Source of the DNA: Subsaxibacter sp. CAU 1640
Lineage (GTDB): Bacteria > Bacteroidota > Bacteroidia > Flavobacteriales > Flavobacteriaceae
Assembly: GCF_023156585.1 (NCBI RefSeq)
Contig: NZ_JALNMI010000001.1
Span: 496,001 to 560,000 of the forward strand
Direction of reading: 5' to 3'
Length of the DNA: 64,000 bases
Shown: positions 41,709 through 44,758 of the stretch, piece after piece
Layout of the letters: each line of letters starts with the position of its first letter
Position numbering within the stretch: the first letter of the stretch is position 1
Program-made: the position numbers and the translations under genes
The notes under the pieces: model-generated
Seen by the model: the letters and a program-made list of their open reading frames with translations, nothing else
What the model was told of the DNA's origin: nothing
The model's database searches: none

Positions 41709-43607
41709 ATGAGCGATATGTTAAAGCATGAGTGTGGCATTGCACTCATTAGATTATTAAAGCCTTTAGAATTTTATAAAGAAAAGTATGGCAGTGCGTT
41801 TTATGGTGTCAATAAGATGTACTTGATGATGGAAAAACAGCACAATCGTGGGCAGGATGGTGCAGGTTTTGCCAGTATAAAATTGGATACAGCTCCCGGT
41901 GAAAGATATATCAGCCGTGTAAGGTCAGTTGCACAGCAACCCATTCAGGATATTTTTGCCCAGATAAATGATCGCATCAACAAAGATTTTAAGGAACATC
42001 CAGAGTATATGGATGATGTAGCACTTCAGAAAAAACACATTCCGTATATAGGTGAATTGCTTTTAGGTCACGTGAGATATGGAACTTTTGGTAAAAATAG
42101 CGTTGAGAGCGTTCATCCTTTCTTAAGACAAAACAATTGGATGCACAGAAATCTGATTGTTGCAGGTAATTTCAATATGACCAATGTGAATCAGTTGTTT
42201 GAAGGATTGGTAAGATTAGGGCAACACCCAAAAGAGAAGGCAGATACCATTACCATAATGGAAAAGATTGGTCACTTTCTGGATGATGCTGTGGCGAAAA
42301 AATACAAACAACTGAAAAAAGAAGGCTATTCAAAAATGGAATGCAGCCCATTGATTGCTGACCGATTGAATGTTGCTAAAATTCTTAAGAAGGCTTCCAA
42401 AAATTGGGATGGTGGTTATGCCATGGCTGGTCTATTAGGACATGGTGATTCTTTTGTGCTTCGTGACCCTTCAGGTATTCGGCCGGCATATTATTACAAA
42501 GATGATGAGATTGTTGTGGTCGCATCAGAACGCCCTGTAATTCAAACGGTTTTTAATGTCGATTATAATGACGTTAAAGAGCTGGATCCTGGACATGCCA
42601 TCATTACAAAAAAATCTGGTGATACATCTATCAAAAAAATCCTTGAGCCTTTAGAAAGAAAAGCCTGTTCGTTCGAAAGGATATATTTTTCTAGAGGAAG
42701 CGATGCTGAAATTTATCAAGAGCGCAAGCAACTGGGTAAATTGTTGATGCCAAAAGTTTTGGAAGAGATTGATTACGATACGAAAAATACTGTTTTCTCC
42801 TACATTCCAAATACGGCTGAAACATCTTTTTTTGGAATGATTGAAACTGTAGAGGATCATTTAAACAAAAAGAAAACACAGGCCATTCTTGATGGCAATG
42901 GCAAACTATCTGCTGAAAAAGTAACCCAAATTCTATCCGAAAGGCCTCGTATTGAAAAAATCGCCATCAAGGACGTAAAGCTGCGAACTTTCATAACAGA
43001 AGACAGCAGTAGAGATGATTTGGTCGCCCACGTTTATGACATTACTTATGGCGTCATTAAACCTACCGACAATTTGGTGATCATTGACGATAGCATTGTT
43101 CGTGGAACAACCTTGAAGAAAAGTATCATCAAAATGATGGACCGTTTAAAGCCAAAGAAAATTATCGTGGTCTCATCTGCGCCCCAAATACGCTATCCTG
43201 ATTGTTATGGCATCGATATGGCGCGTCTTGAAGGATTAATTGCATTTAGAGCGATGCTGGAGTTGCTAAAAGAAAACAACAAATATCATTTGGTAGAAGA
43301 AGTTTATCAAAAATGTAAAGCTCAAGTAGATTTTGAAGATAAAGACGTTCATAATTATGTGAAAGAACTTTACGCTGAATTTACAGACGAGCAAATCTCA
43401 GACAAAATCGCAGAACTTATCTCTGATTTTTCAGTTAAAGCAGAGGTGAAAACTATATTTCAGTCTGTGGATAATTTACATAAAGCTTGTCCTAAAAATC
43501 TTGGTGACTGGTATTTCACGGGAGATTATCCAACAATTGGTGGAAACCGAGTTGTTAATCGAGCATTCATTAATTTCTATGAAGGGAACGACGAAAGGGC
43601 CTATTAG
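41709..43607 (+). CDS. purF: Amidophosphoribosyltransferase, long Bacteroidota form
   Basis: A 632-residue PurF-like enzyme, first step of purine synthesis (PRPP + glutamine to phosphoribosylamine). The catalytic glutaminase cysteine is Cys9 in KHECGIALI after a short propeptide-like start; LLGHVRYGTFGKNS is the glutamine-site segment. The PRPP-binding motif VIIDDSIVRGTTLKK is near residue 455. It is 120-150 residues longer than usual PurF, with an inserted segment between the two domains and a C-terminal extension to NRAFINFYEGNDERAY. Stands alone, with no TAnnTTTG promoter seen. Confidence 0.9.
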   Translation: MSDMLKHECGIALIRLLKPLEFYKEKYGSAFYGVNKMYLMMEKQHNRGQDGAGFASIKLDTAPGERYISRVRSVAQQPIQDIFAQINDRINKDFKEHPEYMDDVALQKKHIPYIGELLLGHVRYGTFGKNSVESVHPFLRQNNWMHRNLIVAGNFNMTNVNQLFEGLVRLGQHPKEKADTITIMEKIGHFLDDAVAKKYKQLKKEGYSKMECSPLIADRLNVAKILKKASKNWDGGYAMAGLLGHGDSFVLRDPSGIRPAYYYKDDEIVVVASERPVIQTVFNVDYNDVKELDPGHAIITKKSGDTSIKKILEPLERKACSFERIYFSRGSDAEIYQERKQLGKLLMPKVLEEIDYDTKNTVFSYIPNTAETSFFGMIETVEDHLNKKKTQAILDGNGKLSAEKVTQILSERPRIEKIAIKDVKLRTFITEDSSRDDLVAHVYDITYGVIKPTDNLVIIDDSIVRGTTLKKSIIKMMDRLKPKKIIVVSSAPQIRYPDCYGIDMARLEGLIAFRAMLELLKENNKYHLVEEVYQKCKAQVDFEDKDVHNYVKELYAEFTDEQISDKIAELISDFSVKAEVKTIFQSVDNLHKACPKNLGDWYFTGDYPTIGGNRVVNRAFINFYEGNDERAY

Positions 43608-43687
43608 TCAAAGGGTTATTGAATATTCAGAACTTGCAAAAATTCACTTCACCTAGAAAAATAGCTTTTTATCGGATAAAAATGCAT

Positions 43688-43733
43688 TTTGTCTAATATT
43701 TTGAACTTCTTAACTAATTTCCGCATACTTTAG
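43688..43733 (+). promoter_or_regulatory. Promoter region of small RNA-like unit 1
   Basis: TACTTTAG (43726-43733, one mismatch to TAnnTTTG) lies 4 bp before the unit, with TTTTG 22 bp upstream of it. A TTTGTCTAA element at 43688-43696 starts 38 bp before the -7 box, exactly as in unit 2. Confidence 0.5.
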
Positions 43734-43737
43734 TGTC

Positions 43738-43810
43738 ACCATAACATAAGTAGGTTAAGTTCATGGTAGATTTGGGGCAAAAAAAGGTGAACACTTGTTC
43801 ACCTTTTTTT
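43738..43810 (+). ncRNA. Putative small RNA, tandem unit 1
   Basis: A 73-nt unit: 5' hairpin with arms ACCATAA (43738-43744) and TTCATGGT (43760-43767), a single-stranded GATTTGGGGC-type linker, then a perfect terminator hairpin 43779-43792/43797-43810 with loop ACTT and T-rich 3' arm. A near-identical copy lies 232 bp downstream. The reading frames of the two copies differ by an indel, so it is not coding. It may be a short stable sRNA, perhaps a known flavobacterial motif such as Flavo-1; I cannot test that here. Confidence 0.6.
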
Positions 43811-43918
43811 ATTGCACTACCTGTAATTTGGGACTTCTTTTTTTAATTATTCATTGATTCACGCCGCAAAACACTTCCGTTCGTCGATTAAATTTCTTTT
43901 AGCCTAATTTATAAGTCG
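43811..43918. other. Intergenic DNA between the two small RNA-like units
   Basis: Part of the 542-bp gap between purF and the superoxide dismutase gene. Apart from the two units, their promoters, one short dispersed repeat and the sod terminator, I see no reading frame or structure in it. Confidence 0.5.
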
Positions 43919-43964
43919 TTTGTCTAAAAAATTTAACAAATCGAATTAACTCATCATATATTTG
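43919..43964 (+). promoter_or_regulatory. Promoter region of small RNA-like unit 2
   Basis: A perfect -7 box TATATTTG (43957-43964) lies 5 bp before the unit. TTTGTCTAA at 43919-43927 starts 38 bp before it, matching unit 1 in sequence and spacing. Confidence 0.6.
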
Positions 43965-43969
43965 CTTCA

Positions 43970-44040
43970 ACCATAACATAAGTAGGTTAAGTTTATGGTA
44001 GATTTGGGGCAAAAAAGGTGAACACTCGTTCACCTTTTTT
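43970..44040 (+). ncRNA. Putative small RNA, tandem unit 2
   Basis: A 71-nt near-copy of unit 1, with two substitutions and two single-base indels. The 5' hairpin here is perfect (ACCATAA 43970-43976 with TTATGGT 43993-43999). In the terminator the A run and the T run are each one base shorter than in unit 1, so the stem stays perfectly paired. The loop is ACTC. This paired change argues for selection on RNA structure, or at least for a functional terminator. Confidence 0.6.
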
Positions 44041-44149: not shown

Positions 44150-44758
44150 TTATTTGGCTTCTGCGTATCTTCTTTCAACTTCGTTCCAATTGATCACATT
44201 AAAAAATGCATTAATGTAGTCAGGACGTCTGTTTTGATAATTCAAATAATATGCGTGTTCCCAAACATCCAATCCAAGTATCGGTGTTCCACCACATCCT
44301 GTCCCTGGCATTAGTGGATTGTCTTGATTTGGTGTTGAACAAATTTCAATTTTTCCGCCTTTGTGAACGCACAACCAAGCCCATCCAGATCCAAATCTTG
44401 AGGCAGCAGCTTTGCTAAATTCATCTTTAAAAGCATCAAACGATTTGTATTTTGCCTCGATGGCATCTTTTAGTTCACCTGAAAGTCTTCCTTTGTTTTC
44501 AGGATTCATCACTTCCCAAAACAATGAATGATTATAAAAACCTCCTCCATTATTTCTAACTGCCTTATTCTCCATATCAAGATTAATAAGGATGTTTTCA
44601 ATGGTCTTTCCTTCTAAATCTGTTCCTTCGATAGCGCTGTTAAGATTGTTTGTATAACCTTGATGATGTTTTGTATGATGTATTTCCATTGTACGAGCGT
44701 CAATGTTTGGTTCCAAAGCGTCGTATGCATATTTTAATTTCGGTAATTCGAAAGCCAT
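44150..44758 (-). CDS. sodA: Superoxide dismutase, Mn-type of the Fe/Mn family
   Basis: A 202-residue cytosolic enzyme that dismutates superoxide to oxygen and hydrogen peroxide. Metal ligands are His27 (MEIHHTKHH), His77 ([11 protein letters not shown]), Asp164 and His168 ([17 protein letters not shown]). The Gly before FYNH and the Gln of [11 protein letters not shown] favour manganese over iron, though cambialistic use is possible. Single gene with a -7 box at 44796-44803 and a terminator. Confidence 0.96.

Follow-up and report, generated by a model that had tools for sequence, protein, structure and literature searches.

A putative tandem small RNA gene array behind purF in Flavobacteriaceae and its predicted pairing with surface-protein mRNAs

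Behind purF in the genome of Subsaxibacter sp. CAU 1640, two near-identical units of about 70 nt follow one another, and the question raised by this locus is whether they are small RNA (sRNA) genes and, if so, on what such RNAs might act. To our knowledge, few studies have dealt with small-RNA regulation in flavobacteria. The locus was analyzed within a window of 64,000 nucleotides, the whole stretch of DNA under study, in which an initial annotation had read the units as possibly a duplicated short sRNA, a sponge or an antiterminator-type RNA. Features are collected in Table 1. We take the flanking ORFs to be purF (amidophosphoribosyltransferase) and a superoxide dismutase gene (sod), names that come from the initial annotation.

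On re-reading, the units had the ends and lengths first given for them. They differ by two substitutions (TTC/TTT and ACTTG/ACTCG) and, within the terminator arms, by two single-base indels (an A and a T), and TTTGTCTAA stands exactly 38 bp ahead of the -7 box in both copies (43688-43696 and 43919-43927). A repeat search recovered perfect terminator stems of 15 bp in unit 1 and 13 bp in unit 2, again as claimed, and returned the units as ungapped repeats of 47 nt at 98% identity and an overlapping 45 nt at 87%. Missed by the initial annotation was a second upstream box, 20-21 bp farther out ahead of each copy, so that TTTGTCTAA is the proximal one of two. Folding of both RNAs beat 200 of 200 shuffles (z -3.98 for copy 1 and -4.16 for copy 2). 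This gain sits in the terminator, as the 41-nt 5′ part alone scored only z -0.96 and -0.85, respectively.

Table 1. Features of the purF-sod interval and its flanking genes, in window positions.
Feature	Position	Strand	Remarks
purF ORF, conserved upstream neighbour	41709..43607	+	homologue in 102/118 loci among matches listed
distal activator-type box, copy 1, GCTTTTTATCGGA	43664..43676	+	
proximal activator-type box, copy 1, GCATTTTGTCTAA	43684..43696	+	20 bp from distal box
-7 box TACTTTAG, copy 1	43726..43733	+	
sRNA copy 1	43738..43810	+	73 nt; 5′ end inferred from promoter
5′ hairpin of copy 1, predicted	43738..43767	+	conserved loop region AAGUAGGUUAA = candidate seed 1; without covariation support
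linker AGAUUUGGGGC of copy 1	43768..43778	+	unpaired in predicted fold; candidate seed 2
terminator hairpin, copy 1	43779..43810	+	
distal box, copy 2, TTTTAGCCTAA	43897..43907	+	
proximal box, copy 2, GTCGTTTGTCTAA	43915..43927	+	
-7 box TATATTTG, copy 2	43957..43964	+	
sRNA copy 2	43970..44040	+	71 nt; 5′ end inferred from promoter
5′ hairpin of copy 2, predicted	43970..43999	+	
linker AGAUUUGGGGC, copy 2	44000..44010	+	
terminator hairpin, copy 2	44011..44040	+	
superoxide dismutase ORF, convergent downstream neighbour	44150..44758	-	homologue in 93/118 loci among matches listed

An exact scan for AAGTAGGTTAAGTTYATGG returned at least 118 stretches, in which identity of the core is a matter of construction; the record titles of the 118 listed name flavobacterial genera, "Flavobacteriaceae", or unplaced Bacteroidetes, Bacteroidia or Bacteroidota MAGs. 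Among the matches listed, together with the window, a profile search found 248 copies of the ~73-nt RNA gene in 118 loci. Array sizes in these sources, which are lower bounds since loci stop at tile or contig edges, were one copy in 53, two in 29, three in 18, four in 13, five in 5 and six in 1. Neighbouring copies lay on the same strand in 129/129 pairs, at a median spacing of 206 nt. Both flanking genes were found in 81 of the 118 loci listed and neither in 4. In all 102 purF-bearing loci among the matches listed, every copy was on the purF strand and behind purF, with the first copy 65-150 bp past the aligned purF end in 98 (233, 244, 305 and 2585 bp in the other four). Judged by these positions, most of the loci examined among the matches listed keep the array in a fixed place after purF. 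The element is thus not a dispersed repeat, one of the outcomes that the initial annotation had named as speaking against its own reading.

A variant linker, GGGACG, was present in 34 of the 248 copies of the listed loci and window, and in 34/34 cases this was the last copy found in its locus (for example L016:3335-3410, from Maribacter sedimenticola, L021:1968-2044, from Zobellia uliginosa, and L040:2242-2318). By eye, the upstream region of these copies (CACAATACCAGTAWTTTAGT) differs and is without clear boxes, which may point to separate regulation of one array member.

Presence across genomes was measured with a covariance model (R1), in searches run with stricter filters, which may miss weak relatives. 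Within the order, 33 of 246 genomes matched at E <= 0.01: all 33 belong to the window's family, of which 40 genomes were sampled, and the other 206 gave no match. A search of related genomes had been proposed in the initial annotation, with absence there counting against the element; instead, most of the family genomes sampled carry it. One of the 33 (G221) has only a degenerate match, L198, in contig C53, in which box and terminator are present and the core is eroded; this copy possibly reflects decay of the family in one lineage. Across the phylum, 29 of 296 genomes matched at E <= 0.1, 26 of them among the 30 sampled from the window's family, and the three matches outside it (L192, L193 and L194) were weak and were rejected on alignment. 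Searching the window's own genome gave, besides the two copies, matches to their palindromic terminators, a single antisense stretch (L004) and some weak hits, and neither there nor in the listed loci were many scattered copies found in one genome, as a dispersed or REP element would have. Core, promoter geometry and location all recur across the family, and the pair in the window therefore goes beyond chance.

The promoter region was then compared across copies. In 242 copies aligned on their best match, the -7 consensus TAnnTTnG was kept at T 98%, A 99%, T 99%, T 99% and G 84%, percentages that are partly a product of construction because the match was picked by score. In 197 of 243 copies it stood 12 nt before the presumed start of the RNA. 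Boxes reading roughly GCATTTCATCGA or TTTGTCTAA peaked at -58/-57 and -38/-37 before the -7 box in the 242 aligned copies, a period of 20-21 bp. These promoter elements and the intrinsic terminator are kept in homologues, as in an sRNA gene with its own promoter and terminator, and the sequence supports the duplicated short sRNA of the initial annotation. From the alignments, copies carry a -7 promoter and a terminator of their own and typically two direct-repeat boxes 20-21 bp apart. LytTR regulators bind direct repeats of ~9 bp, ~21 bp apart, upstream of the promoter, and the AlgR site is ACCGTTCGTC. Box peaks 20-21 bp apart and ahead of the promoter have this geometry, and the form and spacing of the boxes recall LytTR sites, a likeness we treat as a lead only. 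The own genome encodes 8 LytTR proteins; their loci contained no exact box, only two with 2 mismatches, and none of the genes was linked to boxes.

The structural covariation expected in the initial annotation was borne out for one of the two hairpins. The terminator varies compensatorily: an uninterrupted stem of at least 8 bp, G-U pairs counted, was kept in 244 of 245 copies (3 skipped) across 85 different 5′ arms. For the 5′ hairpin (ACCAU/AUGGU plus RRC/GYY), 88.5% of cells were paired in 23 variants picked from 54 strings, but covariation was not above that of shuffles, 79/500 of which reached the score and 88/500 the number of paired cells. Two segments are nearly invariant, AGUAGGUU, which is constant in the 23-variant set, and AUUUGGG, which is almost so. 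An RNAalifold structure of R1 pairing UUAAGUU with GAUUUGG was set aside as evidence because its columns hardly vary.

What might such RNAs pair with? Two genomes (G114 and G119) had weak R1 matches that proved to lie antisense to leaders of genes for CAP-type lipoproteins. In one such leader, L196, nearly the whole 41-nt core pairs in a predicted duplex of -41.4 kcal/mol. At L197, two CAP-lipoprotein-like starts occur in one locus, each preceded by an GCCCCACATCTAC leader. These two loci prompted a search for CAP-lipoprotein homologues, which at E <= 1e-15 turned up in 42 of 60 family genomes, and 32 leaders (the 30 best-match loci plus L196 and L197) were examined. Exact complementary runs of at least 8 nt were present for the loop segment in 15/32 and for the linker in 13/32. 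One or the other segment had such a run in 24/32 leaders, or 23/30 with the two prompting loci left out, against 0/32 for reversed segments; the other 8 were without any complementary 8-nt run. The small MPRM/MARAM protein family, first met via L199, was itself tried as a target and then served as the control gene family: 6/31 of its leaders had a complementary run of at least 8 nt, and 2/31 had one to reversed segments. Median duplex energies were -21.7 kcal/mol for CAP leaders and -13.2 for the control family. With the reversed sRNA, too, CAP leaders gave the stronger pairing (-16.85, against -12.8 for control leaders), and the pairing signal is therefore partly one of base composition.

The CAP complementarity often uses both segments in the right order and recurs across genera, and in leaders such as L217, L218, L220 and L229 the predicted duplex or matching run spans the start codon; that of L218, ACCAAATCTAAATTTACCTACTTATG, is typical. 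The core is too invariant for compensatory change to be tested against targets. CAP genes also carry the array's boxes: within 250 nt upstream, boxes with up to 2 mismatches preceded 23/32 CAP genes and 0/31 control genes, and with up to 3 mismatches 28/32 and 7/31. The own-genome CAP gene (G000:C4:267191-267670, PF00188) has boxes and CCAAATCTAAATAACCCTCTTATG, and its leader contains CCAAATCTA together with CTTATG over the start codon (-21.9 kcal/mol).

Co-occurrence of boxes and complementary sites was then assessed in the own genome, where the pattern gave 213 box places (first 100 listed), 33 of them with at most one mismatch. Downstream of these 33 boxes, within 300 bp, lay 9 of 58 linker-complementary sites. 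The box-site places numbered 8, or 7 distinct ones since two boxes flank the CAP gene, against a maximum of 4 in 20,000 random placements, a null that ignores the intergenic bias of both motifs. True patterns outnumbered reversed ones in box places (213 vs. 82) and in the other count (60 vs. 17), differences that are only indicative as reversed patterns differ in dinucleotides, while the loop complement went the other way, with 50 occurrences against 196 for its reversed control. When 18 box-preceded leaders were compared with 64 control leaders by duplex energy, the true core separated the groups at p 0.013 and the reversed sRNA at p 0.0005, so this test is confounded. No mono-shuffled core, of 60 tried, gave a median shift as large as the true one; by segment, the linker separated the groups (p 0.003) and the 5′ hairpin alone did not (p 0.19). 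Of 13 leader-like sites in the own genome, only 3 were accompanied by a box (up to 2 mismatches, no more than 260 nt away), and the ORFs behind several of the 13 are doubtful. Counts of CCCCAAATCT did not discriminate either: the median was 1.14 per Mb in 32 sRNA genomes (G221 dropped, for its degenerate match) and 1.20 in 38 rows of an sRNA-less family (f5), with sRNA copies subtracted approximately because GGGA-linker copies escape the pattern. Given the confounded energy test and these negative site and genome counts, it is the CAP family and the co-occurrence of boxes with sites that carry the evidence for targets.

Other box-preceded genes of the own genome with CCCCAAATCT-like leaders encode an esterase-domain protein (L276, PF00756), a Fer4_19 protein (L280) and a small protein without Pfam match whose start is lipoprotein-like by eye (L301). 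An exact TGCATTTCATCGA box, with a weaker site, lies upstream of gldK (L281, G000:C2:322043, TIGR03525), whose product we take to be the T9SS ring lipoprotein, and the box regulon may thus include gliding or secretion genes. The stretch L004 (G000:C5:97741-97784), 44 nt long and antisense to the sRNA core, stands directly ahead of a 127-aa ORF without Pfam match. With one mismatch, a box is found ~500 bp upstream; an exact match is more distant.

Three box-preceded stretches of the own genome with linker-complementary sites look like decoys, having no ORF of at least 50 aa that starts within 60 nt and no 100-aa ORF over the site. The first (C1:744873-744986, L315) is intergenic, with three GCCCCAAATCTA sites and a box with 1 mismatch; it converges on a gene that by eye reads like an ABC-transporter ATPase. 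The second (C2:147746, L336, minus strand) is a small terminator-ended unit with an inverted box of 2 mismatches, in which GCCCCAAA is predicted in a hairpin loop before the terminator and AACCTACTTA lies upstream. The third (C2:211366) has an exact box and a site ahead of a terminator, and its fold is no better than that of shuffles (14/200 as good). The sponge reading of the initial annotation is thus probably reversed: the array units look like regulators, and sponge-like complementary stretches occur elsewhere in the genome. For its antiterminator reading no support emerged from these analyses.

That an RNA gene family exists here we regard as highly probable. From the sequences we infer its transcription, its pairing, the direction of control and its regulator, and the best reading, which we hold to be fairly probable, is an activator-driven array of trans-acting sRNAs that would repress co-induced surface-protein mRNAs. 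An activator, perhaps of LytTR type, would bind the boxes and turn all copies on together. Each RNA would then use two segments, the loop region (AGUAGGUUAA) and the linker (GAUUUGGGGC), to pair with a target in its leader and around its start codon, the predicted partners being leader CCAAATCT and linker AGAUUUGG; with the reversed-core controls taken into account, we rate this pairing mechanism as fairly probable. Bacteroidota mostly initiate translation without Shine-Dalgarno sequences. The first target would be the CAP-domain lipoprotein mRNA, made from a promoter with the same boxes, and its translation would be blocked. With target and repressor under the same boxes, their joint induction would form an incoherent feed-forward loop. 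The sRNA may in turn be titrated by further RNAs that follow a box and offer complementary sites. We propose only tentatively the full three-part circuit for Flavobacteriaceae, in which one activator box would drive the sRNA array, the repressed surface-protein mRNAs and the decoy RNAs. If it holds, array copy number would set the threshold between co-induction and shut-off.

Competing explanations can be weighed against the same observations. Every unit is terminator-ended and lies between converging genes, which would suit a dispersed or REP-like element, or a plain row of purF and sod terminators without RNA function. This is very improbable in view of the single locus and constant strand in the 102 listed loci, the conservation of promoter boxes and of a core outside the terminator, and an own-genome search that, beyond the two copies, returned the palindromic terminators, antisense L004 and weak matches. 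A less remote alternative, though still an unlikely one, accepts the RNAs as real and conserved and has them mainly bind protein, titrating an RNA-binding protein, with leader complementarity secondary or partly due to chance. The two conserved segments do vary less than pairing with variable leaders seems to need, and the pairing signal is partly compositional; moreover, in Bacteroides the RRM protein RbpB is bound by FopS RNAs, which are also multicopy, according to the accessible text of PMC11697453. Such binding would leave unexplained a CAP complementarity that often takes both segments in the right order, reaches several start codons and recurs across genera, while reversed segments give no run of 8 nt in 32 leaders.

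The pairing could also activate, the sRNA opening or stabilizing the leader, and co-induction from boxes common to target and sRNA could suit this as well. We consider activation improbable, as the start codon is covered by the predicted duplex or matching run in leaders such as L217, L218, L220 and L229, and FopS represses susC translation (PMC11697453, accessible text). Most of the family genomes sampled keep this RNA at a single, deletable locus with a varying number of copies, and with its predicted targets and predicted decoys it would offer a genetic handle on post-transcriptional control of Bacteroidota surface proteins.

The Rfam scan proposed in the initial annotation gave no family at gathering scores for the array, a tRNA being the only match in the window; at a permissive threshold 24 sub-threshold matches appeared, many on the terminator and FopS among them. 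Comparison with other sRNAs that come in several near-identical, regulator-driven genes, such as Qrr, the Cia-dependent sRNAs and LhrC, is by description. These sets, named together as multicopy sRNAs in the accessible discussion of PMC11697453, resemble the array in their near-identical genes, here with common promoter boxes, and differ from it in that the predicted targets here carry the sRNA's own promoter boxes. The Rfp RNAs of Flavobacterium psychrophilum, from the one flavobacterial sRNA study met here (PMC9723704, accessible text), are likewise conserved flavobacterial sRNAs; Rfp18 has its pairing region in a third stem-loop, whereas two hairpins are predicted here. Compared by description in that text, one of Rfp1-89 is possibly identical with the array RNA. 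In the literature searched, mostly without subscription journals and supplements, no published description of this RNA was found, and the conserved tandem sRNA gene family is apparently undescribed.

The nearest described RNA met here is FopS, by weak sequence overlap, multiple copies and targeting of start regions. The units scored 21.9 bits (E 0.59) against the FopS model (RF04319), below its cut-off of 56, and FopS shares UUCAUGGUA-AGAUUU with the core, a local score reached by 23/2000 and 107/2000 shuffles for two core variants. Among 247 genomes sampled from the phylum, two had a FopS match above cut-off, and both lie outside the window's family; matches outside Bacteroides-like genomes (L205 and L206) were sub-threshold. 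Like FopS and GibS, the units are multicopy Bacteroidota sRNAs with a short 5′ part and a terminator, and pairing at translation initiation regions is predicted or, in the accessible literature, shown. The 5′ end of FopS is single-stranded and its promoters are canonical (PMC11697453, accessible text), unlike the purF-linked tandem array, paired upstream boxes and predicted 5′ hairpin described here, and the array now allows one to ask whether this RNA and the FopS of Bacteroides have a common ancestor.
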